A DNA stretch of 64,000 nt from NCBI RefSeq assembly GCF_019797745.1, contig NZ_VOSI01000003.1, positions 620,001 through 684,000 on the forward strand, written 5' to 3'. This DNA is from Edaphocola aurantiacus (lineage in GTDB: Bacteria; Bacteroidota; Bacteroidia; Chitinophagales; Chitinophagaceae). The notes beneath the pieces were generated by a model, which did no database searches, was not told where the DNA came from, and saw only the letters and a list, made by a program, of their open reading frames with translations. Shown piece by piece: positions 39,506 through 56,558 of the stretch; position 1 is the first letter of the stretch, and the number at the start of each line of letters is the position of its first letter. The position numbers and the translations under genes are program-made.

Positions 39506-39955
39506 CTATTTAAATGATTGTTTTAAATATTCACTTGATGAAGGCACTGAATCTTTACCAAACACCTTACGAATTGTATAAGTAGCCTGTTCGGATTTAA
39601 GTTCTGCTGCTCTTAATAAATAATAATTTGCTAAAGCATTATTCATACTTTCATCTTTTTTGGAACTCAATAAAGCCCACACATCATAACAAGCTTCTCC
39701 AGATTTATAATCATTAGCCATTCTTAACGCATAACCGGTAAACTCTTGCTCCATCCCACTACGGAAGTATATTCCTGAAAGATCCTTATAAGCGATTGGA
39801 TCTCCATAATTTATGACTCTTTCAATCAAAGAATCTCTTAAATGATGATCGAGAAATTCCTTTTCAAATGCAACTCCAGACGGAGAAACATCTTTGTTTT
39901 GACTACAGCTTGCAGTGAAAGTTACGGCAGCAATTAGAAAAGTTTTTTTGTTCAT
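39506..39955 (-). CDS. Lipoprotein, immunity-type, paralogue of the gene at 48190
   Basis: 149 residues with a lipobox (FTASC). The mature sequence lines up with the immunity candidate of the second module: DSLIERVINYGDPIAYKDLSGIYF versus DSLAQRIINFGDTIAYKKLHEMY, then YYLLRAAE versus YYLLKSYE and a shared end VPSSSEYL / IPSSKEYL. It therefore looks like a solitary immunity gene at the far end of the array. No toxin that matches it remains beside it. A periplasmic or outer-membrane location is expected. Confidence 0.82.
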   Translation of the reverse strand: MNKKTFLIAAVTFTASCSQNKDVSPSGVAFEKEFLDHHLRDSLIERVINYGDPIAYKDLSGIYFRSGMEQEFTGYALRMANDYKSGEACYDVWALLSSKKDESMNNALANYYLLRAAELKSEQATYTIRKVFGKDSVPSSSEYLKQSFK

Positions 39956-40032
39956 GTTGAAATATTTATGGATTTACTATTGGTAATGCCAAATTGCCAA
40001 TAACGCTACCATTTCTATAAATAATTAATTAT

Positions 40033-40410
40033 TTATAGGTCTTTTTGATGGGGGCGTAGCTCATAAAATTCTACAATTTCCGATCCTTCATCTTCATTTG
40101 GAATAGATTCATCGTCGAAACTACCAAATTGATTTTCTGAAATTTTTATCGTTGCAGGATAATTTGCTAAATGCATTGATAAAACAACATTGCAGGATGG
40201 ACATAAAGTTGAACCAGCAATTTGTTTTAGACTTAGCTTTTCTGTCTCTGGATTTTCCCAGTCAATTACAAACAACTCTCCACAATTTGTACAAGTGACC
40301 AAACTATTGTTGCTCCAACCACTTTTTAATGGTAGCAAAACTTTATAGTTATCGACATCCAGTGCAACATTTTCATATTTTATTAAACACCTAATCTTTT
40401 TCTTTTGCAT
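40033..40410 (-). CDS. Zinc-ribbon protein, immunity candidate of module 9
   Basis: A 125-aa cytoplasmic protein with two CxxC pairs (VTCTNCGELF and LCPSCNVV) about 30 residues apart, a zinc ribbon. The acidic C-terminal part is FGSFDDESIPNEDEGSEIVEFYEL. It starts right after the stop of the broken module 9 tip, the place where each module has its immunity gene. I know no family for it. The base composition is A+T-rich like the other immunity genes. Confidence 0.65.
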   Translation of the reverse strand: MQKKKIRCLIKYENVALDVDNYKVLLPLKSGWSNNSLVTCTNCGELFVIDWENPETEKLSLKQIAGSTLCPSCNVVLSMHLANYPATIKISENQFGSFDDESIPNEDEGSEIVEFYELRPHQKDL

Positions 40411-40412
40411 AT

Positions 40413-40898
40413 TTATGGTATTCTTGAGCCAACTCTTGCGCCTTGGCGGATTAATAAATTAGTAGTTCCTGCCGCTCTCACAGATGGAGCTAAAAGTATA
40501 TTCGCTCCTTGTGTGAAAGGCAATGGTTGTGCAAAGTAACCAGATGGAGGATTAATCTGCAAAGGGTTACTTAAGGGGTACTTAACTTCAAACACGGCTA
40601 GAGTTATACTTTCCCCAAAATTAAGATACCTATCCATGAAATTAGGCATGGTTGGAAACCTCATAGCTATTTCATTACCATATTGAGGAACACCACCGCC
40701 ATTATGAGCTTCACCCTTTACATATAATCACAGAGGATCTGTTAAGGTCGATGGATTACAAGCCATCGCATGATAAGGGCTTAAATCCTGCTGCCCTGCT
40801 GCATCTGCCATAGGGTCAATACCCATAAAGCGGCCCAGTTGCGGATCATATTCCCTGTTATGGAAGTCCATCCAGTTCAGGCCTATATCTTCACGATC
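40413..40898 (-). pseudogene. Array module 9: displaced RHS core with short tip, in-frame stop
   Basis: The frame DREDIGLNWMDFHNREYDPQ... runs through the RHS core to TLTDPL, where TGA replaces the Gly codon of DPLGL. It then continues in frame through VKGEAHNGGG, MRFPTMPNFMDRYLNFGE and a Pro/Ala-rich tip ending LLIRQGARVGSRIP. There is no start region, and the upstream bases carry a terminator. The tip is short (~50 residues) and I cannot assign a toxic activity. It may be reachable only by recombination, which would also bring in the stop. Confidence 0.75.
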
Positions 40899-40918
40899 CT
40901 AATTGTCCAAATTTACTA

Positions 40919-40940
40919 AAAGCAAGCCGAAGCCTGCTTT
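40919..40940 (-). terminator. Module-end hairpin T8
   Basis: On the minus strand AAAGCA-G-GC-TTCG-GC-T-TGCTTTT: a stem with one mismatch on a UUCG tetraloop, followed by TTTT. It ends module 8 and precedes the core copy of module 9. Confidence 0.8.
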
Positions 40941-40994
40941 CTGTAGGGGAAATATTGATCAAAAAACAATAATTTAAATAATTAATCTGTTTTA

Positions 40995-41651
40995 TTATGG
41001 TGCTGGGTATAATTCCTTTCTAAAGCCGAGAAATGCACGAGTCAATTTATCAACAGGGAACTCACTGGGATGGGCTTTTATGTATTCACTAAATTTATTA
41101 AGTTTACCATCTTTTATTATAAAAATACAATTATTTCTTACTATTAACCACTCAGAAAGTTCTTGAGCGAGGAAACAATTTTTATTTTCCTCCCAATTTA
41201 AGTAAAATTGAATTCCTGGAGACAAAACAACGGATGATATTGGTTCAACTTTATGACTTCGTGGTTTTATTGGATATGTTGATGCAAATGCCTCATTTAA
41301 ACCATTATACTTTTTGAAGTAAATTATTTTAGACTCATCTAGATTCCCATAAAAATACTGATTAAAGCTATCGGCGAATCTATAATGCTCAATTTTTCGG
41401 AACAAACATAAATCATAAACTTTTAAAACATTAATACTATCTGCCTTTAACTGATTGTAGGCAGATTTGTTATTCTTATAATAGAAAGAATCATCTTTTT
41501 CGGTTAGAGAGTTCAAATAGAAATACCCAGATTTTATCCCACTTATAATATATCTTTTCTTCTCCATTTCATTTGCTATGGAAGACATTTGAGCATTAAC
41601 AGTTATGAAGGTTAAAAAATATATAAATAGAGTACATGATATTTTAGACAT
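40995..41651 (-). CDS. Exported immunity candidate of module 8
   Basis: 218 residues from MSKISCTLFIYFLTFITVNAQ, a signal peptide. A longer frame upstream reads into the remains of the toxin and is not the real start. It is homologous to the immunity candidate at 49828: FADSFNQYFYG / FADNFNQYFYW, FASTYPI in both, and a shared AFLGF(R/K)(K/D)ELY end. Both stand directly after tips of the same C39-like type, which supports a toxin-immunity pair. The gene is open and A+T-rich. Confidence 0.85.
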   Translation of the reverse strand: MSKISCTLFIYFLTFITVNAQMSSIANEMEKKRYIISGIKSGYFYLNSLTEKDDSFYYKNNKSAYNQLKADSINVLKVYDLCLFRKIEHYRFADSFNQYFYGNLDESKIIYFKKYNGLNEAFASTYPIKPRSHKVEPISSVVLSPGIQFYLNWEENKNCFLAQELSEWLIVRNNCIFIIKDGKLNKFSEYIKAHPSEFPVDKLTRAFLGFRKELYPAP

Positions 41652-41665
41652 AAAATATTTTTTTG

Positions 41666-42403
41666 TTATCGTAATTTCAAATTCATAAAAAACAAAGGTA
41701 TTGGATTTGTAACCCCATGCAAGCTGCTCGTTGTCATCTGTTTTTCTGTTGTATTTTTCATTAAATGGACTGATATCAAGTCCCAACATTTTGCCAAATT
41801 TGACTACATCATCTGGTGCAACACCTTCTTCCGTGTTAATTTGAAAGATAGTCGCAATTTTATTTATTTTTTTGCATATATTGTATATCCAAATTGTTGC
41901 ATAACCATTGAAAAACATTCATAAACACAATCATAATCGTCATTCTGAAGCTGAGCCCCAGTCTTCCTGCCTACAATTTCGACTGTAACAACTTCTTTAG
42001 CCCCCACCTCATTCTTTACCCCGATATCTCCTCCTGTTGTAGCCTCTTCATTTTCCTTTCTGCGAATATCTGCAGCCTCTCATTCCTGCTCAGCCATACT
42101 CCTGTCAGCTGTTCTGTCACCAAACGTTAAATAACGTGCCATGAAATCCGGCATCGTTGGAAACCTCATAGCTATTTCATTACCATATTGAGGAACACCA
42201 CCGCCATTATGAGCTTCACCCTTTACATATAATCCCAAAGGATCTACCATCGTCGATGGATTACAGGCCATCGGATGATAAGGGCTCAAGCCTTGCTGCC
42301 CTGCAGCATCTGCCATAGGATCTAGACTCAGAAAACGTCCTAATTGCGGATCATATTGCCTGTTATGGAAGTCCATCCAGTTCAGGCCTATATCTTCACG
42401 ATC
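41666..42403 (-). pseudogene. Array module 8: displaced RHS core with C39-like tip, three lesions
   Basis: The core and linker read well to MAEQE, where TGA (42077-42079 region) stands for a Trp codon. The frame then continues to the peptidase-like NDDYDCVYECFSMVMQQFGY and ends at TAA after A7 (41867-41873). One base back, the frame goes on as INKIATIFQINTEEGVAPDDVVKFGKMLGLDISPF. A deletion after NEQLAW has removed the His/Asp part, but the natural tail PLFFMNLKLR is still seen in another frame. It is not a working tip as it stands. Confidence 0.8.
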
Positions 42404-42420
42404 CTAACTGTCCCAAAATT

Positions 42421-42450
42421 ACAAAAAGCAGACCGAAGCCTGCTTTTTGT
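42421..42450 (-). terminator. Module-end hairpin T7
   Basis: ACAAAAAGCAG pairs with CTGCTTTTTGT and encloses a UUCG loop on the minus strand; the stem itself supplies the T run. It ends module 7. Confidence 0.82.
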
Positions 42451-42513: not shown

Positions 42514-42867
42514 TTAAATATAAATTGTACTGCCCTCAAGCCAGCAACTAATACAAAATGATACTCCCAATTCCGCGACCTTGCTTAGCGTTTTTGTATC
42601 AAATTCAATATTGCACTGATCCTCATATTCGTAATGGTACCAAATCGAAATTTTGTCTAATTCAATTCCAATATTTTTTAATTCGGAAAGTTTGGTATTC
42701 AATAAATCAACTGTATAATTTAACACATTACCTTCAATACTTTCTTCACTTAGAATTAATTCCCAATCTAATTGGGTTTCTTTTGGAGAAAAATTGAAAA
42801 TTTCGCTTATTGAATCAAAATGTCTAGTATTATTTACTTCAATTTTGATCGAATAAAATTCTTTCAT
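42514..42867 (-). CDS. DUF4279-like immunity candidate of module 7
   Basis: A 117-aa cytoplasmic protein. FNFSPKETQLDWELILSEES, a middle helix (LNTKLSELKNIGIEL) and KVAELGVSFCISCWLEG fit the DUF4279 layout (sW...L...l.......la.lg...d...Y), a family often found as immunity beside polymorphic toxins. Its module partner (42950-43235) is decayed, yet this gene is intact. The family call is from pattern memory. Confidence 0.7.
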   Translation of the reverse strand: MKEFYSIKIEVNNTRHFDSISEIFNFSPKETQLDWELILSEESIEGNVLNYTVDLLNTKLSELKNIGIELDKISIWYHYEYEDQCNIEFDTKTLSKVAELGVSFCISCWLEGSTIYI

Positions 42868-42949: not shown

Positions 42950-43235
42950 CAATTACTAAATTTCCCCTCTTTAATCAATTGCTTCCCCTAATTGAATGGT
43001 TTCTAACAATGTTTTAGCTTCAGTATTATAGGCTCCTCCATTGGCCATCACAACCATATTCTATAGAGCTTTAATCCGTTGCCCCTTACTTAACTCATCC
43101 ATGGCATTTTTTAAGGACTGAATATTTGTTGTCCTTCTGCATCAGCCATAGGGACTATGCCCATAAACCAATCCAATTGCGGATCATACTGCCTATTGTA
43201 AAATCCATCCGGTTCAAAAACTGCCATATAGTAAT
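42950..43235 (-). pseudogene. Array module 7: decayed RHS core and tip remnant
   Basis: A core copy with many changes (DGFYNRQYDPQLDWFMGIVPMADAEGQQ) stops at SP. A following piece reads MKNAMDELSKGQRIKAL, stop, NMVVMANGGAYNTEAKTLLETIQLGEAID. This matches the tip of module 5 (TMDEVSKAQQIKALWNMIVM...ARTLFEAIQSGEAM). Stops and at least one shift break it. No module-end hairpin separates it from module 6. Confidence 0.72.
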
Positions 43236-43375: not shown

Positions 43376-43666
43376 TTAAATCATTTCAATGGTCATTCGT
43401 GCATCAGAGAAATATTCCAATTTTACTTCTGGCAATTCCTTTTTAATCATTAAAGCTATTTCTTTCCCTTCTCGGTCAAGTTCATTAATTAAGTTATCAT
43501 CAACGAAGCCATTATAATGTTCATTGTCATATTTTAACAACCACTCATTTAATTTTCGCTTAGTTGTCAAACTTAAACCTAAGTCTTCAGGGGCTATATA
43601 ATCACCTTCGTATTTATTTCTAATTCCTTTGCCACTCAATGCAGCATCTATAACTAAGTATTTCAT
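43376..43666 (-). CDS. Small cytoplasmic immunity candidate of module 6
   Basis: A 96-aa protein with no export signal (MKYLVIDAALSGKGIRNKYEGDYI). It is mostly helical, with many charges and GLSLTTKRKLNEWLLKYDNEHYNGF in the middle. It lies where the module order calls for the immunity gene and starts a few bases after the tip's likely natural stop. I know no family. Confidence 0.72.
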   Translation of the reverse strand: MKYLVIDAALSGKGIRNKYEGDYIAPEDLGLSLTTKRKLNEWLLKYDNEHYNGFVDDNLINELDREGKEIALMIKKELPEVKLEYFSDARMTIEMI

Positions 43667-43671
43667 TGCGA

Positions 43672-43933
43672 CTATTTAATAGGTCTGAAAAATCTATGGT
43701 CAATTATAACGTCTCTCGTAAGTCCCGATTTCGAAAACTCCATTCTTACTATTCATTAGACCCCAAGGATCTACTACCATTGTAGATGGGTTACAAGCCA
43801 TCGCATGATAAGGGCTTAAATCCTGCTGCCCTGCTGCATCTGCCATAGGGTCAATACCCATAAAGCGGTCCAGTTGCGGATCATACTGGGGGTTATGGAA
43901 ATCCATCCAGTTCAGCCCTATATCCTCACGATT
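43672..43933 (-). pseudogene. Array module 6: RHS core with a tip cut to its last residues
   Basis: The core copy is good up to STMVVDPWGL but continues only ~20 residues (MNSKNGVFEIGTYERRYN) to a stop. In another frame the same bases read FSKSGLTRDVIIDHRFFRPIK to a stop just before the immunity gene. This is probably the true C-terminus of the lost tip, joined out of frame by a deletion. Confidence 0.7.
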
Positions 43934-43953
43934 CTAATTGTTCAAATTTACAA

Positions 43954-43975
43954 AAAGCAGACCGAAGCCTGCTTT
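43954..43975 (-). terminator. Module-end hairpin T6
   Basis: AAAGCAGGC-TTCG-GTCTGCTTT on the minus strand, followed by TTGT. It ends module 5. Confidence 0.82.
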
Positions 43976-44000
43976 CTGTGGTAAAAATGTTGATTGAGGA

Positions 44001-44627
44001 TCAATACATCTTTGCATTGAACTGCTTCAGAAAGCCTTTTTTATTTCTATATTTCTTTCTCAGGTAGAGCATTCCATCAATTACAGTATTATCTTTAATG
44101 GCATAAATTTTATCATCATACAAGAAAAATAGATCATAAATTGCCATTTGGATAATAACTATTTTAGTTTTAGATAAGTCATAAAATTTAGAAAAAATAG
44201 CAATTTTATCATTGTATTCTTGTTCAATCTGACATCTATTGTCTACCGACACTTCAAATGAATCTGTATTTGACATTTGTACATTGCATAATAGTAACTT
44301 ATTATCTGCTAAACTAGAAATTTGCATTGCGTATGGCCCTACTATTGCAGCATCTAAATTCTCTAAAAAAACCCTATTCTTTAAGCCAAATTTCTTTTCA
44401 TTTGATATTTCAACATAATTTAAATTAATTATTTGCAGTTTAATATCTTGTTCAAAAATCTTTGGATACAAAACATGAAATTTTGCAAAATACTCCTTAT
44501 TATTTTTAAGATAATTGATAATGCTATCTTGTAATTGAACATTAACAATAGCCGTTTTCAATTGTAATTGTGCAAATGTGGCAAAAGAAAGGCTTATTGC
44601 TATAAAAAATAAAGTAACTTTTTTCAT
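44001..44627 (-). CDS. Exported immunity candidate of module 5
   Basis: 208 residues with a signal peptide (MKKVTLFFIAISLSFATFAQ). It is related to the gene at 45395: NYLKNNKEYFAKF / NYFLNTKDSI, IINLNYVEIS / VLNINYTDLEE and FYDLSKTKIVII / RYDLSKIKIYKI, with similar YDLKKYILKK / GMLYLRKKYRN ends. It begins two bases after the module 5 tip stop. A periplasmic site of action is likely. Confidence 0.82.
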   Translation of the reverse strand: MKKVTLFFIAISLSFATFAQLQLKTAIVNVQLQDSIINYLKNNKEYFAKFHVLYPKIFEQDIKLQIINLNYVEISNEKKFGLKNRVFLENLDAAIVGPYAMQISSLADNKLLLCNVQMSNTDSFEVSVDNRCQIEQEYNDKIAIFSKFYDLSKTKIVIIQMAIYDLFFLYDDKIYAIKDNTVIDGMLYLRKKYRNKKGFLKQFNAKMY

Positions 44628-44628
44628 T

Positions 44629-45303
44629 TTAATCTAAATTTACGGTTGCGTTCTCACTAATAGCAGTTTCATGTTCGTACATCTCATAAATAGGTTCAGG
44701 GTCGCCATCATTAAACACAAATGTCTCTTTCTTGTGTGTAATATCTGAATCGTAAGTTTGCATACCTTCTGGCATGCCAGCATCTGGATCATAAACCATT
44801 TTAGTTTCACCAGCAACGTTATGATATGTGGTAAATATAAGTTTACCACCTTTAATCATTGCCTCACCGGATTGTATGGCCTCAAATAATGTCCTGGCTT
44901 GCATATTGGAACCATCTCCATAAGTCATTACAATCATATTCCATAGAGCTTTAATCTGTTGCGCCTTGCTTACTTCATCCATAGTGTTTTGTATAGATCT
45001 CATCATATCCGAAACCCCACCACCAAGCAAGCTGGCTCCAAACATAATAGCTTGTCCTTCTACAAATCCCAGACCAGCGGGTGCTATGTTTACATTAGGA
45101 TTACTTAAGTTTGCCGTATACTGCGGTGCTAATCCCAAAGGATCGGTCATGGTTGATGGATTACAAGCCATTGCATGATAAGGACTCATGGTTTGCTGGC
45201 CTTCTTCACCAGCCATAGGGTAAATACCCATAAAACGGCCCAGCTGTGGATCGTATTGTCTGTTATAGAAGTCCATCAAGTTCATGCCAACATCTTCACG
45301 ATC
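44629..45303 (-). CDS. Array module 5: displaced RHS core with open tip
   Basis: The frame is open from DREDVGMNLMDFYNRQ through a diverged core (FMGIYPMAGEEGQQTMSPYHAM) and DPLGL, then ~165 tip residues. The tip has GLGFVEGQAIMFGASLLGGGVSD, NTMDEVSKAQQIKALWNMIVM, GEAMIKGGKLIFTTYHN and an acidic end. It has no start region of its own, so I think it is silent unless it recombines into rhs; the first ATG inside is in MNLMDF. The tip activity is not known. It lacks the GEAHNGG linker. Confidence 0.72.
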   Translation of the reverse strand, partial: DREDVGMNLMDFYNRQYDPQLGRFMGIYPMAGEEGQQTMSPYHAMACNPSTMTDPLGLAPQYTANLSNPNVNIAPAGLGFVEGQAIMFGASLLGGGVSDMMRSIQNTMDEVSKAQQIKALWNMIVMTYGDGSNMQARTLFEAIQSGEAMIKGGKLIFTTYHNVAGETKMVYDPDAGMPEGMQTYDSDITHKKETFVFNDGDPEPIYEMYEHETAISENATVNLD

Positions 45304-45320
45304 CTAATTGTCCAAATTTA

Positions 45321-45348
45321 CTAAAAGCAAGCCGAAGCCTGCTTTTAG
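45321..45348 (-). terminator. Module-end hairpin T5
   Basis: CTAAAAGCA pairs with TGCTTTTAG around a UUCG-containing loop on the minus strand. It ends module 4. Confidence 0.82.
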
Positions 45349-45394
45349 TAGAGAAATAGTTGATTGAGAATTAATAAAAATTCTTTATATAACC

Positions 45395-45970
45395 TTAGTG
45401 TACAGAAAGAGATTTTTTATATTTCTCTATAAATAATTCATCATGCCCGTATTTTTTCAATATGTATTTCTTTAAATCGTATAATCTATTCTTATGAACT
45501 ACATAAATTTTGGAATCAATAAGCACATAGAACTCATTAGGCATTGTTGGTATTTTGTAAATTTTAATTTTACTGAGATCGTAGCGGTTTTGCACATACT
45601 TAAAATTCTTTTTAAAATCCTTATCGAGCACAGGTTTATACCCCAAATACAAGGAATCACTATCCTTATTTATACTAAATAAAACTTCCTTTTGCAGAGT
45701 ATCAATTATTATCGGTACTAATAAAGAGTTTTTTAAATCTAAAACAGGTTTGTATTTTTTTATGTTACTGGAGTCGATTTCTTCCAGATCTGTATAATTT
45801 ATATTTAAAACAATGCAATTTCTATTAATTTTAATAGAATCTTTTGTATTTAGGAAGTAATTAAGAATAGAATCACTTTGTAATTTATTATAACAAAACA
45901 ATGACTTTGTCATTTGACAATTACTACTAATTGAAAAAAGAAAACATAAAGTGCCAAGAATATATTTCAT
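45395..45970 (-). CDS. Exported immunity candidate of module 4
   Basis: 191 residues with a signal peptide (MKYILGTLCFLFSISSNCQ) and very Lys/Ile-rich composition. It is a relative of the module 5 immunity gene: RYDLSKIKIYKI and IDSKIYVVHKN match FYDLSKTKIVII and YDDKIYAIKDN. Its toxin is gone except for a ~32-residue tail just upstream. The function as immunity is inferred from position and relation. Confidence 0.8.
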   Translation of the reverse strand: MKYILGTLCFLFSISSNCQMTKSLFCYNKLQSDSILNYFLNTKDSIKINRNCIVLNINYTDLEEIDSSNIKKYKPVLDLKNSLLVPIIIDTLQKEVLFSINKDSDSLYLGYKPVLDKDFKKNFKYVQNRYDLSKIKIYKIPTMPNEFYVLIDSKIYVVHKNRLYDLKKYILKKYGHDELFIEKYKKSLSVH

Positions 45971-45997: not shown

Positions 45998-46358
45998 TTA
46001 TAATGTATGAATAATTAGAATATGGAATTCCTGTATAGATTGCTGGTAATTTTTCCGTTTAATGATTTCGCCTACATTAGGATCATAGACCCAAGCACTT
46101 TCTTATTCTGGGCTTGAGCTCGTGTTTTTAAAATACAATCAACCCAAATTTTATAATATAATTTCATATTTTATTTTTCATCATTATTTACTGCGTCATA
46201 TATCAATGTTGCACCCCCATAGATTAATATACCTAACGCAATACCCCAGCCAACAGGATTGGAAGTAGGACCTACAGCCACGAGCCCAGTTGTGGATCAT
46301 GTTGCCTATTATGGAAGTCCATCCAGTTCAGCCCTACATCTTCACGGTATTCATTGCC
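45998..46358 (-). pseudogene. Array module 4: mosaic of three deleted fragments
   Basis: The order on the minus strand is: core start (NEYREDVGLNWMDFHNRQHDPQLG, read in parts); a jump to the last ~40 residues of a tip that matches the current tip of the full rhs gene (NPVGWGIALGILIYGGATLIYDAV); the first 23 codons of a copy of its immunity gene (MKLYYKIWVDCILK); then a jump at 46100 to the tail AWVYDPNVGEIIKRK of another tip. At least two deletions joined modules here. Confidence 0.8.
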
Positions 46359-46374
46359 CTATTTCGAAAAAATA

Positions 46375-46402
46375 CTACAAGCAGACTCTGGTCTGCTTGT
46401 AG
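46375..46402 (-). terminator. Module-end hairpin T4 (variant)
   Basis: A perfect 12-pair stem, CTACAAGCAGAC with GTCTGCTTGTAG. The loop is not UUCG-like as in the others (CAGA on the minus strand), and there is no long T run, but the place and the core GCAGAC/GTCTGC are the same. It ends module 3. Confidence 0.72.
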
Positions 46403-46467
46403 CTGATAAATTTTGCTTAATGCAATTGAAAATATTATAACACTATTTAAATGTTTTAATGCACATC

Positions 46468-47043
46468 TTATAGTAAATAATCTCTCCAACAGTTTTTAAT
46501 AAGATACATCTTTGTTGGATAAATCCTATAAACAATTTCATGAGTAATGGAGTGTTCATCAATCCAGATAGCATCAGGATTATCCCTACTCCTAAAATCT
46601 AGCCTTTTATACTCTCCAGCCTTTTTAGTAATGATGAAATGTTTTGAGACAGATTCTTCATGCAATTTCTCATTCTCTAAATTTGGCATAATAATTATTT
46701 GATGCCCTTTATAATTAAAAAAATAATTATACTTTGCTGGTATGTTTAGTTCATCAGCCTCTAACCTACTATAAAAGTTAGTTGCGAAAATTTGAACTTC
46801 AAAAAAACTACTCTTTTCTACTATTTTAATTCCTTTTTGATAAGGAATGCGCATTCCATCAATTGGTTCTTCGTTTAATGAAACAAGCATTTTGTCTAAT
46901 GCAATCATTAGATTTGTGTCTTTTATAATGCATTCCTTCAAAGGCATTCTTATAGTGTCAACCTTCAAAGAAGATTGTTCCTGTGCAATACATACCTTTT
47001 GTATTAAAATAAAAAGGTATATCAATAAGCTGTTTTTTTTCAT
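46468..47043 (-). CDS. Exported immunity candidate of module 3
   Basis: 191 residues with a signal peptide (MKKNSLLIYLFILIQKVCIAQ). The mature part has IRMPLKECIIKDTNLMIALDKMLVSL, a middle FFNYKGHQIIIMPN and the end MYLIKNCWRDYLL. It starts ten bases after the JAB-like tip stop. I know no family; pairing with the JAB tip is by position. Confidence 0.8.
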   Translation of the reverse strand: MKKNSLLIYLFILIQKVCIAQEQSSLKVDTIRMPLKECIIKDTNLMIALDKMLVSLNEEPIDGMRIPYQKGIKIVEKSSFFEVQIFATNFYSRLEADELNIPAKYNYFFNYKGHQIIIMPNLENEKLHEESVSKHFIITKKAGEYKRLDFRSRDNPDAIWIDEHSITHEIVYRIYPTKMYLIKNCWRDYLL

Positions 47044-48051: not shown

Positions 48052-48074
48052 ATTATTCTAACAAGGCATAAAAG

Positions 48075-48106
48075 TACAAAAAGCAAGCCGAAGCCTGCTT
48101 TTTGTA
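48075..48106 (-). terminator. Module-end hairpin T3
   Basis: TACAAAAAGCA pairs with TGCTTTTTGTA around the UUCG-type loop region. It ends module 2. Confidence 0.82.
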
Positions 48107-48189: not shown

Positions 48190-48687
48190 CTATTTATTAG
48201 ATAAAGATAAGTTGTTCAAGTATTCTTTTGATGAAGGTATAGGATTACTGCCAAATGTATATTGAACCTTCTGTTTTGCCCTTTCATAATTACCTTCGTA
48301 AGACTTTAGTAGATAATAAGTAGCTATTTTTTCATGAATACCATTTTTATTCTTAGAGTACATAACAGCTGATGCATCAAAGCAAGCTCTATTATAATTA
48401 TAAATATCGGCCATCATTAATGAGTAGTAGTAAAACTCTCTGGGTAGACCGGCAGCTGTATACATTTCATGTAGTTTCTTATAGGCAATTGTATCACCAA
48501 AGTTAATAATTCTCTGTGCCAACGAGTCTTTTAATGCATAATTTTGAAAGAAAAAGATCGAGCCATCTCCAACGGAAGAAACAGAGTTGCTGTCACTATA
48601 TCCAATTGTAGCTTTGTGGCCATTATCATTCTTGCAAGAAAGGAAAACATTGAGTATAATTACTCCAAATAAATATTTCTTATTCAT
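48190..48687 (-). CDS. Lipoprotein immunity candidate of module 2
   Basis: 165 residues; MNKKYLFGVIILNVFLSC is a lipoprotein signal. It is helical (SEL1/TPR-like feel) with YKKLHEMYTAAGLPREFYYYSLMMADIYNYNRACFDAS (read in parts), and is related to the solitary gene at 39506. It starts 17 bases after the repaired end of the module 2 tip. It should sit in the envelope. Confidence 0.82.
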   Translation of the reverse strand: MNKKYLFGVIILNVFLSCKNDNGHKATIGYSDSNSVSSVGDGSIFFFQNYALKDSLAQRIINFGDTIAYKKLHEMYTAAGLPREFYYYSLMMADIYNYNRACFDASAVMYSKNKNGIHEKIATYYLLKSYEGNYERAKQKVQYTFGSNPIPSSKEYLNNLSLSNK

Positions 48688-48703
48688 AATTTTTTATTTA
48701 AGA

Positions 48704-49739
48704 TTCCATGGTAATTTTATTTGCCCTAATTGTTTTCCATTACGATATAGGATTAATGCTCCATCATTCAAATTCTTATATTGCTCACTACTGACTCCAT
48801 TAATAGATGGATTTCCATTATTATCTGTTCCATACATCACAAATCCTCTTGCACCCATATAAATTCGCATTATTATGAAGTAAAGATAATCCTTGAGCCA
48901 TTAATTCTGATTGGCATACTAACAAACACGATATAAAAGGATCGTTTTTTTCAATTGCTTTCTTATAAGCACGGTTTTTACTTGCTAGTAAAAAATCAAA
49001 GGCCTTTACGTCTCTTGGATCATCTGCATAAAAATCCTCGAATCCTTCACCACTACCATCCTGAGCAAATCCTGGTAAGTTACCATGTCCTGTTACAAAA
49101 AAGATATTGTCCCCACTTCTAATCGGAATACTATTGCTGTACCTATTGTAAACATCATTTTTAGATTTGAATAGGTTAATTGTTTCGCTAGGATCAGTGT
49201 ACCAAGCTTTAGCTCCTCGAGAATTCATATATGCCAATCCTTTGTATGTTTGGCTCATATTGTAATCAAATTCTTCTTTTTGTAGTCCCATAAAGGCCAC
49301 TTGAGCACGAATGCCAGTGTAAATAGAAATTGAGTAATTCCCTATAACAAGCCCTTCAACAGCAACTCCTAAACTTTGCGATAGGAAATAATCTTTAATC
49401 CAATATTCAGCCATAATTCGTTGCTCCGCCATATCCTGCATTGCTGTTCTCTCACCAAAGTTCAAATAACGCTCCATAAAATTGGGCATAGTAGGAAACC
49501 TCATTAGCATTTCCATTGCATAATCCGGAGGAGTACCACCATTATGAGCTTCACCCTTTAGCATATAATCCCAAAGGATCGGTCATGGTTGATGGATTAC
49601 AAGCCATAGCATGGTAAGGGCTTAAACTCTGCTGTCCTGCAGCATCTGCCATAGGATCTATACCCATAAAACGACCCAACTGCGGATCATATTGCCTGTT
49701 ATGGAAGTCCATCCAGTTCAGCCCTATATCCTCACGATC
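48704..49739 (-). pseudogene. Array module 2: displaced RHS core with His/Cys tip, two indels
   Basis: The core copy reads well to DPLGLYAKG, where one extra base (G at 49561) shifts the frame. The shifted frame carries KGEAHNGG, MRFPTMPNFMERYLNFGERTAMQ and a ~200-residue tip up to NANLY. There an extra base in GGG (48854-48856) shifts again, and the true end reads GARGFVMYGTDNNGNPSINGV... to LPWNLK. With both repaired, the tip has FFVTGHGN and FISCLLVCQSE, a His-Gly and Cys spacing that recalls caspase-like peptidases. That fold call is a guess. Confidence 0.78.
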
Positions 49740-49754: not shown

Positions 49755-49786
49755 TACCAAAAGCAGACCGAAGTCTGCTTTTGGTA
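49755..49786 (-). terminator. Module-end hairpin T2
   Basis: A perfect 14-pair stem (TACCAAAAGCAGAC with GTCTGCTTTTGGTA) closed by UUCG on the minus strand. It ends module 1. Confidence 0.85.
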
Positions 49787-49827: not shown

Positions 49828-50493
49828 TTATTGTTGTTTAGGGATTTGATATAATTCATCTTTAAAGCCAAGAAATGCAGCGGTTAATTTATTAATAGGA
49901 TAAGCATCTGAATGAGCTTTAAAATAATCACTTGCCTTTTCCATTTTATCGCCCTTCAATATATATAAAGAATTATCCTTAATAATGAAAAACTCTCCAA
50001 ATGCTAATGTCAGGAATGTGTTCTTATGCCCTTGCCAATTCAAGTAGAAATTAAACTCAGGTAAATCAACAAGACTATTGATGGGTTTTAATTTTTGGCT
50101 TCCTGAATTAATAGGATAAGTTGAAGCAAAAGCCTGATTAAAATCTAAATTATCATTAAAAAAAACTATTTTAGGTCTTCCTGTGTCCCAATAAAAATAT
50201 TGGTTAAAATTATCCGCAAAATCATAATTATTAATTTCCTTGAATAAGCATAAATTATAAATTATAAATACACCGACATTTTTTCTTTTTAGCTGATCAA
50301 AAGCTATCTTGTTTTTTTTGTAATGAAAAGAATCTTTTTTTGCCAATAATGACGGCGAATAGGAAAAATTCGCACGTAATGCTTCTTTCAAATAAGCTTT
50401 AACTTCTTTCGGATCGGGGAATGATGATTTTTGGGCACTACTACTCATTGTCATAAATAAAGATAATAGTGAGATGAAAATTATTCTATACAT
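49828..50493 (-). CDS. Exported immunity candidate of module 1
   Basis: 221 residues with a signal peptide (MYRIIFISLLSLFMTMSSSAQ). It is homologous along its length to the module 8 immunity gene (FADNFNQYFYW, QAFASTYPIN, AAFLGFKDELY). It starts 12 bases after the C39-like tip. An envelope location is expected. Confidence 0.85.
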   Translation of the reverse strand: MYRIIFISLLSLFMTMSSSAQKSSFPDPKEVKAYLKEALRANFSYSPSLLAKKDSFHYKKNKIAFDQLKRKNVGVFIIYNLCLFKEINNYDFADNFNQYFYWDTGRPKIVFFNDNLDFNQAFASTYPINSGSQKLKPINSLVDLPEFNFYLNWQGHKNTFLTLAFGEFFIIKDNSLYILKGDKMEKASDYFKAHSDAYPINKLTAAFLGFKDELYQIPKQQ

Positions 50494-50505: not shown

Positions 50506-51491
50506 TTAACGAAGCTTAATATTCATAAAAAACAATGGAACTGGATTATAACTTTTAATCTCAAACATTCTCATCGCATTTATTTCATAAAATCCTGTAC
50601 CTTGTACGTTTCGCCCTTTATCGGGGTCATTGATTAATGATCTGATTTCCTCGCCAGATGAGGTAGCTACTCTTAACATGCCGGAAATCATTAACGTATG
50701 AGAAGTATTTGCTGAATTTGCTACAAAAAACATAACTGCACTTCCAGATTTTAATGCATCCCATGCTAATCTTTCATTTTCTGCAGTTACAATATTATAA
50801 TCTGAATTTAATGGAGAAATATCAAAACCTAATATCTTTCCCAATTTTATAACATCCTTTGGTGCTACCCCTTTAGGAGTTCCAATTTTATAAAGTTCAG
50901 CATACCGCTTTATTTTTTGTAAGATACATCATATCCAAATTGTAGCATAACCATTGAAAAACATTCATAAACACAATCATAGTCACCCTGTTGAAACTGT
51001 GCATTTACCTTCCCTCCTACTTTTTCAAGAATAACATCAGTGGAAGAATAACTCGAATTTCCTGATAAATTCGCTACCAAAATAGAAAAGCTAAATCGCG
51101 CATTCATTGCTCTAACATCACCTGTTCCTGTGGCAGCCTCTTCATGCTGCTTTTGATGAAATTCTTGAGCTGCTATTTGTTGCTCCGCCATACTCTGCAT
51201 GGCTGTTCTCTCACCAAAGTTCAAATAACGCTCCATAAAATTGGGCATAGTAGGAAACCTCATTAGCATCTCCATTGCAAAATCTGGAGTGCCCCCTCCA
51301 TTATGGGCTTCACCTTTAACATATAACCCCAAAGGGTCAGTTAAGGTTGATGGGGTACAAGCCATAGCATGATAAGGACTTAAACCCTGCTGCCCTACGG
51401 CATTTGCCATCGGGCCAATACCCATAAAACGTCCCAGTTGTGGATCATGCTGTCTGTTATGGAAGTCCATCCAGTTCAGCCCCTCACGATC
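50506..51491 (-). pseudogene. Array module 1: displaced RHS core with C39-like peptidase tip, one frame change
   Basis: The core (FMGIGPMANAVGQQGLSPYHAMACTPSTLTDPLGL in parts), the linker and the tip's first part read without a break to GDYDCVYECFSMVMLQFGYDVSYKK. TAA follows A6 (50913-50918). One base back, the frame goes on: IKRYAELYKIGTPKGVAPKDVIKLGKILG, then SHTLMISG and INDPDKG, ending MNIKLR. Cys in DYDC, His in SHT and Asp in NDPD fit the C39 peptidase triad. Apart from the one-base change the tip looks complete. It could be broken, or read by slippage. Confidence 0.8.
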
Positions 51492-51506: not shown

Positions 51507-51538
51507 TACCAAAAGCAGACCGAAGCCTGCTTTTGGTA
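51507..51538 (-). terminator. Module-end hairpin T1 after the rhs immunity gene
   Basis: TACCAAAAGCAG pairs with CTGCTTTTGGTA around GC-TTCG-GT on the minus strand, so the UUCG loop is closed by C-G. It ends the rhs transcript, before the first displaced module. Confidence 0.85.
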
Positions 51539-51585: not shown

Positions 51586-52005
51586 TTAATTGTAGTATTT
51601 TGCGATTAAAACTGCAATTAATATATAGCCTAAAAATATACATAATGATCCCAGGAAATATTTAATAAATAGTTTTCCATTCTGGTATGGATACTTTTTA
51701 ATTAAAATTTGGTACCGGTCTTTGTGAAAAATCAAGAAATAATTAAGTAACAAAAAAGGCAAAAAGTACGAAAAGAAAAAACTAAAGAATGCATCTATAC
51801 GCGTTCCTGGAAATATATCTATTGGAATTTTGAATATTCCCTTTACTATTCTTAAATCATGAAGGATAAATAATATCAGTACAAGGTTCAATGCCATTGT
51901 CATAGACATAAAAATCATTGTGTAAACCTTCCAGTCCTTCTTATTCTGGGCTTGAGCTCGTGCTTTTAAAATACAATCAACCCAAGTTTTATAATATAAT
52001 TTCAT
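51586..52005 (-). CDS. Membrane immunity candidate of the full rhs gene
   Basis: A 139-aa protein with four hydrophobic segments (~28-50, 70-90, and two near the C-terminus: FLPFLLLNYFLIFH and FLGSLCIFLGYILIAVLIA). It starts five bases after the rhs stop, the immunity position. A membrane-bound partner fits a tip with a membrane-active end. A 23-codon fragment of a second copy survives in module 4 beside a fragment of the same tip, which shows that the two travel together. Confidence 0.82.
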   Translation of the reverse strand: MKLYYKTWVDCILKARAQAQNKKDWKVYTMIFMSMTMALNLVLILFILHDLRIVKGIFKIPIDIFPGTRIDAFFSFFFSYFLPFLLLNYFLIFHKDRYQILIKKYPYQNGKLFIKYFLGSLCIFLGYILIAVLIAKYYN

Positions 52006-52010: not shown

Positions 52011-55000
52011 TTATTTTTCGTCATCATTTACTGCGTCATATATCAATGTTGCCCCCCCATAGATTAATACACCTAAACCGATTCCCCAGCCAATAGGGTT
52101 TGAGACTATGCCAAAGTATACTAAACCAGTTGTCGCTAAACCTACTACACCAACACTAGCATCAACTATATCACGATGTTGACTAACTTCTGACCACCCT
52201 CCGGATTCAAGTTGATCAGCCACTTTGTAGACTGAGTAGCTGGTAGAAACAACTGATCCAAGAATACCTAAATTTTTTGAGTACTTAAGATAACGTGCTC
52301 CTCCGGCGCCATATGTACGAAGTATGTTTATGGTACTTACATTGTATATTTTGCCACCTCTAGCCAATACTGCCCCTCCTTCAATTACCATCTCTTTTAA
52401 TCCAGAAGCCAGGCCCCATGCACCTAAGGCGGTATTTGTGCCATCTATAAGACTCGCCTCTTTTGCCGCATTTCTCAGGTCATCCAAACGAGACTGCAAA
52501 AACAGGTCATTTGAAGGATCCATAAATGCATCAATATCAGCATATCCCTTTGGAGAGATATAACTTCTTTGACCATACTTATTGTATCCCGTGTATGTAT
52601 AACCATCAAAATTAGTCCCAATGCGCAATTCGCCCCAATAAGCTGCGCTTAAATAATTATATAAGGCGGTTACAGCTTTATCTCCACTTGCCCACATGCC
52701 ATCGTTACCCGCAGCTACAGAAAGAGCCCAATTTCTAATCCATTGTTCAGCTCTCTTTTGCTGTATTGCCATACTTTGCATAGCTGTTCTTTCCCCAAAA
52801 TTAAGATACCTATCCATGAAATTCGGCATCGTTTGGAACCTCATAGCCATTTCATTACCATATTGAGGAACACCACCTCCATTATGAGCTTCACCCTTTA
52901 CATACAATCCCAGAGGATCTGTTAAGGTAGAAGGATTACAAGCCATAGCATGGTAAGGGCTTAAGCCTTGCTGCCCAGCAGCATCAGCCATAGGATCCAG
53001 GCTCAGAAAACGTCCCAACTGAGGATCATACTGGCGGTTATGAAAATCCATCCACTTCAGAAAACCCTCTTCACGATATTCATTACCCTGGTAACGGTTT
53101 TTGTTCGGTAACATTCCAGAAGCTGTACTACCCATACCTACGATCGGTAAACCATAAGGGTAATAGTGTTTTTCCTCCAGCAATACGCCAGGCTCCAAAG
53201 TTACGGCAAGATTGTCAAAATAAGTAGGTTCGGCACTCTGGGTACTGATATAAGTGGCTACATAACCACTCTGGGGTACTTCCAAAGTCTCAGTAGCATC
53301 GGTACCGATACGGCTCCAACTGCCCGCGCCATCGGCCTGCCAGATACGGCTGTACTCCGGTACCAATTGCATTTGCTCATCGAAAAATAAATAACTGAGA
53401 TATGCTTTTGGCTTATTGGGGTTTGTGGCTGCTGCCTGTAAGGCATCATAGGCCTGCTGCAGGCTGCTACTGTTCAGCATTTGCGCTGCCCAGTCGCTGG
53501 CGATAGTTCCTTCTGTTCCACTCAGCTGTCCTGCCGCTTGCGCCAGGCTATTCACTACTTGTTCAAAGCTGCTACCGCTCACATTGCCGCTGCTGGTTTC
53601 GGAACTTTCATAATAGTTATCGGCATTCAGGCTCAGCTTATCACCAGCCATTACTTTTAAAAGTAAAGTAGTGCCCACATTAGGTGTGCTGGTATTGCCT
53701 GTAGTCAGCAGCGCCGCTTTGCTATCGGTACTGCTGGTACTCTCCGGTTTATCTTCACTCAATACCGCTACCTGGTCAAAGGTCTGCTCTTCCTGGCTCA
53801 GGTTTCCGGTCTCATAAGTGGCATTATAGGTCTGCTGCTGCGCGGCAAGGTTCCCGATTCCTCCCGAACCTATAGCATCTGCTACTACACTGCGTACATT
53901 GCCCAAGTGATCTTTTACAAAATACTGTTCCTGAGGAGTAGATTTTGTCATATCAATGCGGCCCACCGGCGTACTGATAGACAGCAACACAATTGGCTGT
54001 TTATTTAAAGTATCTCTGTACTGTGCAGTGCTGATATAATCGAATCGTACCGTGCTGCCGATATTTACAATTTCCTGTACCTTATTGCCCGCCGCATCGT
54101 AGCTGTAATACAATCGTTGCGCAGTAGAATCTACAATACTGAATGGCTTGTTGAAGTAAGTATAACCAATATTGGACGAGAAAATACCTTTTGAACGATC
54201 TTTAACCAGATTGCCTGCCAAATCGTAAGTATACCCTTGAGATAATCTATTCAGAAAGTCTCCACGGCTAAAATTAGTGGTAATTGCATCTACAACTTTA
54301 TCCAGCTTATTGCTGTTAGATAAATAAGTATAGGTAAGGTTGTCTACTGTAGTCGGGTATACCATCTGGTTGACCGCCACTACAGCCATGCGTTTCAGGC
54401 TCAGGATATTGCCGCCCTGGTCATAAGTAACGGTTTCACTGTAATCCTGGCTGCTGTTGCTCCAGCTGGTCGGCATTACATAACCGGCATTACTGCGGCT
54501 GTACGCCCCGCTCAGCATACGGCCTGCGGCATCGTATATATAGCCGTAGCTATGGGCACCCATATTACCGCCAGCGGATCCTCTCCAGATCATACCTGCG
54601 GCCAGCCCATCGTAACGCAGGCTGTCATAACCATAATCATAGCGAAGGGCTTCCCCGAAGGTGATCGATTGTCCGCCATTACTACCTGTAAGGGCAAAGT
54701 TTTCATTGATCCCCTGCAGCTCACCTCGGATATTGTAGCTAAAGTTCTGGGTCTCTGCATTGGAGCCTAATGTAGAGCTGGATTTACGGCCCATATCATC
54801 GTAGGTATTACTAATGATGGGCTGCCATGGCATGTTATTAACACGGTGCTCACTTAGGCTTAGCTCCCCGGTTTGCGCATTGTAAGTATTGCGGTACCAT
54901 TCGCGGAAGGCCGGGCCGGTACCATTTCCGTACTGCTGCCCATGTGCGGTGACCAATACTTGCCCGGTATAACTGTATTGTACCATTGCTGTGTCCTTTC

Positions 55001-56558
55001 CGCCACGTGCATGCTGCGATACCGTATAGATCGGTCTGCGTTCTTTATCATAAAAGGTCTTGCTGTAAGTCCAGTCCTGGAGGCCGGTATTGGTTGCGTG
55101 CCCCCTGATAATGCGTACTCTTCCCGATGTCTGCAGACCATAGGTACTCCCGCCGGTAGTAAAGGTCTCCGCATCGGTGGCCGTACTCAGGCTGGCCTGT
55201 ATCAGGCCGGTGCTGAAGTTTTCAGAAGCCAGGGGATGCGTAGCTTCATAGCTGTCATAATAATTATATGCCTGTATCTCGCAGGAGGTAATACTCAGGA
55301 GGTCGGGATAAGTATACCTTCCGGTTCCCCACAGGTAATAATTGATCGTACCCGTGGTGCTACCGTTACTTTCGCTATTCGCAGCAGTCTGCAAGCTGTC
55401 CCGGCTTTCGCTATTGGTCAGTATAGCCGTAGCAATCACACGACCCGGACGATCGTAGAAGATCACTTCCCATAGTCCTTTACTTTGCTCAATTACATTG
55501 CGGCGCATGATCACCTGGCCCTCTTTATTGTAGACCAGTTCGGTAAATCCGGTTTCACCCGGCTTGTGCTGGGCATACTGGCGGCCTTTGGCATCATATT
55601 TATAAGAGAAGCAAAGCTCGTCTACCACCGCCTGGCTTACCGTGCCGGATGCGGCCTCCAGGGCCTCTACGGCTTTAGGGGGTAATACATAACGCAGGCG
55701 GCCGATGGCATCATACACATAATAGGTGCGGGCATAGGTTTTAGGGCTTTTACTCATCAGGCTGGCCTCGTATACCGGTTTGCCCTCACGGTCTTCGAGT
55801 ACCAGTTTTTCTCCACCTTGTGCGGTGGTAATCTGACTACCCTTTAATGCATTTGCCGTAAAATAGCCATTTGCCTGTGGCAGACCATTAGTACCAATGT
55901 CCCAGATACGGATGCCCGCCTGTGGCAGTCCGGAGCCGGTATTGGCATCATTGAATACTATAGTGGTTTTAGAACCTCTGCCCTGCCCTATTCGGCTGCG
56001 GCCCGGCGCATAAGCGGTACTGCTGCGCTCGGTACTGCTGGAAGTATTCCGTACCATAGAGGCAGATAGGCCAGCAGTGCTCACCTCGGTACCACCCTCT
56101 GAAGGGTATAGCGTACCATTGTGGTATTGAGTAGATTTGTAGATCGGATTGATGTCATAACCTGCAGATGAAGGATATGGCTGGAAGCTGTAGCCATCGG
56201 GCAGGTTACGGATATCGGTAGTCTTTATGACAAAGCTGCTATTGCTCCTGCGGACGCCCACCTGCACTGGGTTGCCTTGTCCGCTTAACGCTGTGGCCGT
56301 CATGGCAGCCTTATCGGCAGTCGTATTATAGGTAAACTGTGCAGAAGCCGTATCGCGGTATTTGGGAACCAGTACCGTCAGGGTCTGCACCCCCCAGGGT
56401 GTGGTTGATGCCGGTATAGGTGCCGTATTAGTCACACTACCGGCTACTGTTTGTTGTGTCGTATTGGGCGTATTGGTTTGCCCGTACGCCAGCCCACCGC
56501 AAAGCAAGGCCAGCACCGGTATTACAGACCGGTATATATAGGAAAGTCTATTTGACAT
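52011..56558 (-). CDS. RHS polymorphic toxin with hydrophobic C-terminal tip
   Basis: A 1515-aa secreted protein. It has a signal peptide (ending GLAYGQ) and an N-terminal region with a DUF6443-like order. Many YD repeats follow (YYVYDAIGRLRYV, YNYYDSYE, YDYGYDSLRYDGL, YGYIYDAAGRMLSG). The RHS core is at 1159-1218 and ends TDPLGL. Residues 1219-1515 are the variable tip: a linker shared with several array modules (GEAHNGGGVPQYGNE), a middle domain and a Gly-rich hydrophobic end (VGVVGLATTGLVYFG, IGWGIGLGVLIYGGATLIYDAV). The tip probably acts on membranes. The repeats should form a shell around it. This is the only full-length copy and the likely recipient of tips. Confidence 0.92.
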   Translation of the reverse strand: MSNRLSYIYRSVIPVLALLCGGLAYGQTNTPNTTQQTVAGSVTNTAPIPASTTPWGVQTLTVLVPKYRDTASAQFTYNTTADKAAMTATALSGQGNPVQVGVRRSNSSFVIKTTDIRNLPDGYSFQPYPSSAGYDINPIYKSTQYHNGTLYPSEGGTEVSTAGLSASMVRNTSSSTERSSTAYAPGRSRIGQGRGSKTTIVFNDANTGSGLPQAGIRIWDIGTNGLPQANGYFTANALKGSQITTAQGGEKLVLEDREGKPVYEASLMSKSPKTYARTYYVYDAIGRLRYVLPPKAVEALEAASGTVSQAVVDELCFSYKYDAKGRQYAQHKPGETGFTELVYNKEGQVIMRRNVIEQSKGLWEVIFYDRPGRVIATAILTNSESRDSLQTAANSESNGSTTGTINYYLWGTGRYTYPDLLSITSCEIQAYNYYDSYEATHPLASENFSTGLIQASLSTATDAETFTTGGSTYGLQTSGRVRIIRGHATNTGLQDWTYSKTFYDKERRPIYTVSQHARGGKDTAMVQYSYTGQVLVTAHGQQYGNGTGPAFREWYRNTYNAQTGELSLSEHRVNNMPWQPIISNTYDDMGRKSSSTLGSNAETQNFSYNIRGELQGINENFALTGSNGGQSITFGEALRYDYGYDSLRYDGLAAGMIWRGSAGGNMGAHSYGYIYDAAGRMLSGAYSRSNAGYVMPTSWSNSSQDYSETVTYDQGGNILSLKRMAVVAVNQMVYPTTVDNLTYTYLSNSNKLDKVVDAITTNFSRGDFLNRLSQGYTYDLAGNLVKDRSKGIFSSNIGYTYFNKPFSIVDSTAQRLYYSYDAAGNKVQEIVNIGSTVRFDYISTAQYRDTLNKQPIVLLSISTPVGRIDMTKSTPQEQYFVKDHLGNVRSVVADAIGSGGIGNLAAQQQTYNATYETGNLSQEEQTFDQVAVLSEDKPESTSSTDSKAALLTTGNTSTPNVGTTLLLKVMAGDKLSLNADNYYESSETSSGNVSGSSFEQVVNSLAQAAGQLSGTEGTIASDWAAQMLNSSSLQQAYDALQAAATNPNKPKAYLSYLFFDEQMQLVPEYSRIWQADGAGSWSRIGTDATETLEVPQSGYVATYISTQSAEPTYFDNLAVTLEPGVLLEEKHYYPYGLPIVGMGSTASGMLPNKNRYQGNEYREEGFLKWMDFHNRQYDPQLGRFLSLDPMADAAGQQGLSPYHAMACNPSTLTDPLGLYVKGEAHNGGGVPQYGNEMAMRFQTMPNFMDRYLNFGERTAMQSMAIQQKRAEQWIRNWALSVAAGNDGMWASGDKAVTALYNYLSAAYWGELRIGTNFDGYTYTGYNKYGQRSYISPKGYADIDAFMDPSNDLFLQSRLDDLRNAAKEASLIDGTNTALGAWGLASGLKEMVIEGGAVLARGGKIYNVSTINILRTYGAGGARYLKYSKNLGILGSVVSTSYSVYKVADQLESGGWSEVSQHRDIVDASVGVVGLATTGLVYFGIVSNPIGWGIGLGVLIYGGATLIYDAVNDDEK

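Follow-up and report, generated by a model that had tools for sequence, protein, structure and literature searches.

A mosaic array of displaced putative toxin–immunity modules behind an rhs gene of Edaphocola aurantiacus

The stretch of DNA analysed here, 64,000 nucleotides (nt) of the 3.69-Mb Edaphocola aurantiacus genome (positions 620001–684000 of contig C3; the window), carries a full-length rhs gene followed by an array of displaced toxin-tip modules. The rhs product contains the RHS-associated core (NCBIfam TIGR03696 Rhs_assc_core, residues 1132–1218, 49.6 bits against a cut-off of 32.5) before its variable tip, the attached tip. The partner gene that precedes rhs ends in a weak RHS repeat (PF05593, E 0.0074, 17.1 bits, under the cut-off of 22). 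Behind rhs, the array occupies 12.6 kb of the minus strand. The original prediction had delimited the locus, rhs included, at 39506–56558; the array itself begins at 52005 and reaches ~39433, where the last hairpin lies. Its modules are named m1 to m9, numbered from rhs outward, and all lie on the minus strand (Table 1). The closest relative among the genomes compared is Edaphocola flava (Chitinophagaceae).

A tblastn search of the window with the end of the rhs core recovered nine displaced copies on the same strand as rhs, starting for m1 to m9 at 51479, 49736, 48054, 46358, 45300, 43930, 43203, 42400, and 40895. The E-values (2e-58 to 4e-08) exclude chance as the source of these nine matches. 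The downstream fragments carry the end of the same rhs core joined to other tips, the arrangement that defines a displaced-tip rhs locus. A core block of ~55–60 codons is kept in m1, m2, m3, m5, m6, m8, and m9, several of which also retain a linker after the block; the expectation of about 60 codons for every copy does not hold for m4 and m7, where remnants of ~28 and ~30 residues are left. Behind each core piece come a tip, or what is left of one, and then one immunity-type open reading frame (ORF), or two in the case of m9. The array is a mosaic: tip types differ among modules, except that m1 and m8 share one type of tip and of immunity-type gene, and that m4 contains a deleted relative of the attached tip (88% identical over 93 nt, 92% over 79 nt, and 79% over 232 nt). 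As had been predicted, putative tip–immunity modules thus lie displaced behind rhs, whose product has a signal-peptide-like start.

Table 1. Positions in the window of the rhs gene, its neighbors, and the elements of the displaced modules
Feature	Positions	Strand	Remarks
Partner gene	56601..60020	-	1139 aa; directly upstream of rhs; signal-peptide-like start (by eye)
Full-length rhs	52011..56558	-	1515 aa; signal-peptide-like start (by eye); core 1132-1218; attached tip ~residues 1226-1515
Immunity-type gene of attached tip	51586..52005	-	139 aa; Bfi1-family match E 4e-4, 20.3 bits, under cut-off 100
Hairpin h1	51507..51538	-	Upstream boundary of m1
m1 core block + tip	50506..51479	-	Tip frame broken
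m1 immunity-type ORF	49828..50493	-	221 aa; signal-peptide-like start
Hairpin h2	49755..49786	-	Upstream boundary of m2
m2 core block + tip	48691..49736	-	Frame broken at two places; tip common to E. flava
m2 immunity-type ORF	48190..48687	-	165 aa; lipoprotein-like start; open in both species
Hairpin h3	48075..48106	-	Downstream end of m2 unit common to E. flava
m3 core block + open tip	47053..48054	-	ORF 47053-48021, 322 aa; JAMM-like motif
m3 immunity-type ORF	46468..47043	-	191 aa
Hairpin h4	46374..46403	-	
m4 core remnant + tip end	46099..46358	-	Last 41 codons of attached tip type + start of immunity gene
Immunity-type ORF behind m4	45395..45970	-	191 aa
Hairpin h5	45319..45350	-	
m5 core block + open tip	44629..45300	-	ORF 44629-45285, 218 aa
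m5 immunity-type ORF	44001..44627	-	208 aa
Hairpin h6	43949..43979	-	
m6 core block	43700..43930	-	Most of tip lost
m6 immunity-type ORF	43376..43666	-	96 aa
m7 damaged core block + tip fragment	42960..43209	-	Without hairpin
m7 immunity-type ORF	42514..42867	-	117 aa; DUF4279 match under cut-off
Hairpin h8	42420..42450	-	
m8 core block + tip	41666..42400	-	At least 2 frame breaks; tip type that of m1
m8 immunity-type frame	40995..41654	-	219 aa; 45% identical to that of m1; within ORF 40995-41918
Hairpin h9	40914..40945	-	
m9 core block	40413..40895	-	In-frame stop, then open stretch
m9 immunity-type ORF a	40033..40410	-	125 aa
m9 immunity-type ORF b	39506..39955	-	149 aa; lipoprotein-like start; 39% identical to m2 immunity-type protein
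Terminal hairpin	39433..39456	-	Array end; no core block after

Nine hairpins bound the modules, in agreement with the predicted order of tip, immunity-type gene, and usual hairpin; m7 is without one. The whole genome was searched with the pattern AAGCAGRCTTCGGYYTGCTT, allowing up to 2 mismatches. All nine matches fall in the array, the reversed control gave none, and a longer form of the pattern gave eight matches, again all in the array. In E. flava, the six matches all lie in its rhs loci, and genomes G002, G003, and G004 contain no match. An ordinary terminator of the genome was considered as the identity of the hairpin and rejected on these counts (8/8 and 9/9 in the array). The hairpin is part of a recurrent joint, which in m2, m5, m6, m8, and m9 consists of the hairpin, ~10 bases, a stop in the core frame, the residues x-R-E-D-(I/V)-G-(L/M)-N-(W/L)-M, and the core block. 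The joint of m1 is alike, only two codons shorter, and m3 and m4 have a related joint with the stop slightly further upstream. Nearly the same truncated joint is thus found in six of the nine modules and a related one in two, m7 having none. Similar joints occur at two E. flava loci (L040 and L041), with the stop present in three of the four displaced copies seen. These two arrays (L040:13541-13640 and L041:1-99) both meet a contig edge in the same 99 bases, which include the hairpin and are 100% identical.

The hairpins are conserved in structure. Folding of 6 of the 15 aligned hairpins yielded a single stem of at least 13 pairs in each, with z-scores of −5.1 to −9.1. In the alignment of all 15, 89.9% of the stem cells are paired. 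Two-sided changes affect three pairs, in 10 cells; covariation reaches a score of 0.192, compared to at most 0.090 in slid controls, and the numbers of such pairs and of pair types do not exceed those in shuffles. Conservation of the hairpins by paired changes suggests that transcripts end there. Together with the A-tract before it and the T-rich bases after it, the conserved stem would be terminator-like in form, and a terminator scan of the window listed three of the nine array hairpins, its total being at chance level (14 compared to 13.4 in shuffles). The same 20-nt pattern was found in 106 stretches of viral contigs, and a tblastn search of 80 loci from those contigs found no rhs core. 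The hairpin sequence is therefore terminator-like rather than unique to rhs arrays.

The two halves of the modules differ in their state of preservation. As judged from three-frame translations, the tips of m3 and m5 (322 and 218 codons) read on without interruption from the core block as far as the stop that precedes the immunity-type gene. Frameshifts or in-frame stops break those of m1, m2, m8, and m9, and most of the tip is lost in m4, m6, and m7, so that the "up to nine reserves" for switching in the original prediction come down to two open tips. Immunity-type frames, on the other hand, are open behind all nine displaced tips. By eye, signal-peptide- or lipobox-like starts were recognized in 7 of the 10 displaced immunity-type ORFs (m1, m2, m3, m4, m5, m8, and m9b), and such starts would place their products in the cell envelope. 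None of 20 proteins had a Pfam match above cut-off. The m3 tip contains the motif HxHx7SxxD, which we take to be of JAMM type; the motif occurs once in the six-frame translation of the window and in 6 of 20,000 shuffles of the protein. A Toxin-JAB1 match of this tip remained under cut-off (E 0.075), and no PDB match was found by sequence. The m1 and m8 tips, which are only 65% identical, leave the core frame at a corresponding place (50905–50930 and 41860–41890), with an A-run before the stop.

The displaced fragments are without an export start: each has a stop or hairpin upstream, its only possible starts are internal methionines, and none of these begins a signal-peptide-like segment recognizable by eye. 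The attached tip alone carries an export signal and is probably the sole toxin deployed. As for the route of export, the sheath model of the type VI secretion system (T6SS; PF05591) had no match in the genome, with a control match in E. coli only, and models for VgrG and PAAR were not searched. A TssD search gave no match here or in any other genome it covered. SprA of the type IX system is present in the genome, and no result links it to rhs. If the displaced modules were instead independent toxin–antitoxin genes with their own starts and promoters, as ORFs that can begin at an internal methionine of the core block might allow, tips lacking a signal-peptide-like start, placed just behind a terminator-like hairpin and a stop, mostly broken in frame, and with promoter signals not above chance would hardly be expected; we regard this explanation as very improbable.

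The locus was compared with that of E. flava. Window positions 20001–33241 and 34032–38465 match E. flava contig C9 at 93%–95% identity, and 61950–64000 matches the region upstream of the rhs gene on E. flava contig C10 at 92.7%. As judged from these alignments, the rhs array is at the same chromosomal place in both species. Part of the E. flava array is unseen, since C10 ends inside the array and C9 begins beyond it. The stretch between the two C9 matches (33242–34031, containing a 224-aa ORF) has no match in the otherwise 93%–95% identical region.

The rhs gene with part of the partner gene is 79% identical between the species, compared to 97%–99% for the tip and immunity-type gene of m2. 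By the Nei–Gojobori method, synonymous divergence (dS) is 0.208, 0.210, 0.213, 0.219, and 0.293 in five flanking genes, 0.83 in the rhs core, 1.35 in the partner gene, and 0.02 (2 of 100 synonymous sites) in the m2 immunity-type gene. The flanking set leaves out 37979–38464, where dS was unreliable (2.4 despite 93% BLAST identity), and 33360–34034, which has no match in the loci used. Also kept out was the gene at 60058–61569, which precedes the rhs pair and encodes 503 aa with a signal-peptide-like start, because its copies, in rhs regions on E. flava contigs C1 and C10, adjoin other rhs genes; its dS of 0.45–0.50 lies between the flanking and rhs values. The greater divergence of the rhs backbone would be explained by alleles older than those of the flanks, by a foreign allele in one species, or by fast diversification.

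The boundaries of the shared unit can be read from the alignment of m2. Differences number 26 in 866 sites of tip and linker, 7 in 498 of the immunity-type gene, 1 in 109 of the stretch up to the hairpin, and 15 in 144 of the core block. High identity thus starts at ~49560, the end of the core block, and stops at the hairpin (~48080), beyond which the E. flava sequence continues not with a core block but with a tail that recurs at the end of its contig C8. Synonymous divergence and boundaries together imply that the m2 tip–immunity unit became common to both species after their flanking genes had parted. It is important to note that 95% identity of m2 compared to 79% for rhs does not prove transfer, and the claim was rejected in that form: the flanks are also 93%–95% identical, so that the case is now built on synonymous sites and the decay of the tip. 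The tip frame of m2 breaks at different places in the two species, and where one breaks the other reads on. A frameshift common to both species was accordingly rejected, and the tip was probably open when it was shared. The immunity frame is 165 aa long in both. The comparison indicates that a predicted toxin–immunity unit passed between species, and the exchange of units by recombination that had been proposed is corroborated by m2.

A hairpin at the end of the array and at every module boundary except that of m7, a conserved stem, and a shared unit that ends at a hairpin are also what would be seen in an integron-like cassette array whose hairpin is the recombination site of an integrase. 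The other end of the shared m2 unit, however, falls in the core block. The five tyrosine-recombinase domains (PF00589) of the genome all lie outside contig C3, so that the array has no integrase beside it. Since, in addition, the hairpin has the A-tract, stem, and T-tract form of a terminator and its 20-nt pattern recurs in the viral contigs, we give this explanation almost no weight.

The original prediction had seen in the array a cassette store within one genome, from which displaced tips are joined to the rhs core and deployed in turn. Such a store is favored by the open frames of m3 and m5, which run on from the core block, by exact runs of 29–35 nt that m2, m8, and m9 have in common with the attached core region, and by the occurrence of the attached tip type as a displaced remnant in m4. 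Fusion of main and orphan rhs has also been described in Salmonella, in the part of that report drawn on here (PMC3967940). Homology to the present rhs gene is limited, however. Seven displaced core blocks (m4 and m7 are too short for the comparison) are 73%–83% identical to the attached block over 150 nt, whereas cores within a locus are described as identical in the portion consulted of a study of Enterobacteria (PMC2935791). Over a 430-nt stretch of the attached core region, the longest exact runs are 35 nt in m9, 32 nt in m2, and 29 nt in m8, and 9–18 nt in the other six modules, including 18 nt in m3 and 14 nt in m5. The whole rhs pair and the array share 36 25-mers; among the 20 listed, all lie in m2, m8, m9, and the tip remnant of m4. 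The long near-identical stretch of main and orphan core that marks a store of the Salmonella LT2 type was not found in the window's array. Switching of the open m3 and m5 tips with the present rhs gene looks unlikely from these alignments. A point in favor of switching comes from E. flava, where a displaced module has 94% identity and an exact run of 56 nt in common with its attached core, which means that the homology barrier to switching is not general. With seven of nine tips broken or mostly deleted, and the two open ones sharing exact runs of only 18 and 14 nt, a store for switching is quite unlikely to be the main role of the array, and the predicted store is supported only in part. Longer runs are shared by the displaced modules among themselves (79, 78, 68, and 54 nt) and by m2 with its counterpart in E. 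flava (82 nt), a pattern consistent with recombination among modules.

Based on these data, we consider it likely that the locus is a mosaic array of displaced toxin–immunity modules that are passed between lineages and kept probably for immunity. In the corresponding model, the unit comprises the end of the core, a tip, an immunity gene, a terminator-like hairpin, and a short broken core start. A unit would enter by homologous recombination in the core block and push older units downstream. Units would also recombine among themselves and with the corresponding locus in related species, by way of the core block at one end and the hairpin boundary at the other; exchange boundaries are seen for m2. 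A unit arriving from another array would bring its hairpin and broken core start along, which would explain the fixed joint. The attached tip alone would be deployed, displaced tips would decay, and immunity genes would be retained. Given that tips mostly decay and immunity-type frames have remained open, what the array durably provides is most likely protection against the toxins of kin, with occasional re-use of a displaced tip as a possible lesser role.

Several observations weigh against this model. There is no age gradient along the array, the distal m8 and m9 being among the modules closest to the attached core, and the high dS of rhs may reflect fast diversification instead of alleles older than the species split. 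The contrast between the halves of m2 is small (three indels of 1–2 nt and one stop in 866 aligned nt, compared to none in 498), and the m2 immunity gene has a dN/dS of 0.63 on seven changes, indistinguishable from neutral; with so few changes, selection on this gene cannot be demonstrated. A comparison of m1 and m8 likewise gives a weak contrast, with one of five indels in the tip and neither of two in the immunity-type gene not a multiple of three. The immunity-type frames were picked because they are open, which biases the count of nine in nine, and the original immunity gene of m4 is a remnant. Their role as immunity genes is deduced from position and exported-protein starts, family matches being absent or under cut-off. 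A Bacteroidota-type promoter pattern had no match in the window (1.9 expected), and matches to sigma-70-type promoters for the displaced modules were at chance level.

Some of these points, namely the broken tips, the missing promoter evidence, and the lack of visible constraint on the m2 immunity pair, would suit a passive graveyard, in which modules accumulate by insertion and decay and neither displaced tips nor immunity genes are of use. Immunity-type frames that are open behind all nine tips, an m2 immunity gene open in both species beside a tip broken at different places in each, and hairpins conserved by paired changes, as if transcripts still ended there, argue otherwise, and we judge pure decay unlikely while granting it some chance. 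The competing readings are not mutually exclusive, and the likelihoods attached to them are not shares of one whole.

The model of an exchanged array kept for immunity can be extended to the joint itself. Tentatively, and with more doubt than confidence, we propose that hairpin and truncated core form a self-copying boundary: since every arriving unit brings the joint with it, each insertion would recreate the joint, silence what lies downstream by terminator and stop, and leave two homology arms, the core block and the hairpin, by which whole units could travel from one species to another as silent cargo, retained for the sake of their immunity genes.

Further rhs loci were noted in the genomes compared. 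A second rhs gene of the same type lies on contig C2 of the same genome (L009:13319-19300), with two related immunity-type ORFs that are 42% identical; no displaced core match was found downstream of this gene. In E. flava, the closest relative lies on contig C8 (83% over 4378 nt) and is accompanied by at least one displaced module and two hairpins. Beyond the array end on E. flava contig C9 (L061:301-903), a 200-aa lipoprotein-like ORF is 24%–26% identical (best E 1e-18) to both immunity-type ORFs of rhs on contig C2 of the window's genome; it may be an orphan immunity gene directed at a toxin of the sister species. Another rhs family occurs at E. flava C1:953633-984785, where 31 kb contain nine core matches, all on one strand; the first is part of a 2456-codon frame. 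In genome G003, three core copies on contig C7 (L046; 10149, 14138, and 16145) have a common out-of-frame stretch inside the core, as if one broken copy had been multiplied; the rhs gene on contig C5 of that genome (L047) is without this stretch.

The locus offers a test case, dated relative to the species split, of whether displaced rhs tip modules are spare weapons or kept antidotes: the m2 pair is one unit, common to two species after their flanks had parted, whose toxin is broken differently in each and whose immunity-type gene is open in both. The conserved joint provides a marker for seeking exchange units and crossover points in other Bacteroidota. Literature searches found no work combining Edaphocola and rhs and none on orphan modules with terminators, and a word search of the main text of the B. 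cardium genome paper (PMC7017618), which the O. hominis work discussed below cites, found no mention of rhs.

Displaced-tip arrays have been described in Proteobacteria and in Bacteroidota (Ornithobacterium hominis), E. flava has a further array on contig C1, and the kind is therefore already known; the comparisons that follow draw on parts of the cited papers. The Rhs displacement arrays of Enterobacteriaceae, for which circular intermediates were proposed in recombination entry (Jackson et al. 2009, PMC2935791), resemble the present one in their full-length rhs gene followed by core-end fragments with different tips, most without a start and some degenerated. In contrast to the variable-length core fragments there, the fragments here mostly share one truncated joint with a hairpin, and seven displaced cores differ from the attached core by 17%–27% over 150 nt, unlike in those arrays. 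In Salmonella Typhimurium LT2, a displaced tip–immunity pair also lies behind the main rhs gene; the recombination described there (Koskiniemi et al. 2014, PMC3967940) took place across 522 bp at 95% identity, compared to the exact runs of 9–35 nt found here. The T6SS immunity arrays of Vibrio cholerae likewise keep immunity genes whose effectors have been displaced (Kirchberger et al. 2017, PMC5361080), but the present array involves an rhs protein and core-block homology, and the T6SS sheath model found nothing in this genome. Several immunity-type genes in one orientation are also a feature of polyimmunity loci (Zhang et al. 2012, PMC3482391); according to their description, toxin genes or cassettes never interrupt such loci, whereas tip pieces lie between the immunity-type genes here. 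O. hominis (PMC13183296) is, like Edaphocola, a member of the Bacteroidota, with one large rhs gene, an array of tips with small genes behind them, and a tip shared with another species; its 26 orphan tips were called pseudogenes, among accessory genes. It belongs to another order and has another rhs type, and the portion of its description drawn on here mentions no hairpin joint or exchange boundary. What the E. aurantiacus array adds to these systems are the hairpin joint and the dated sharing of m2.

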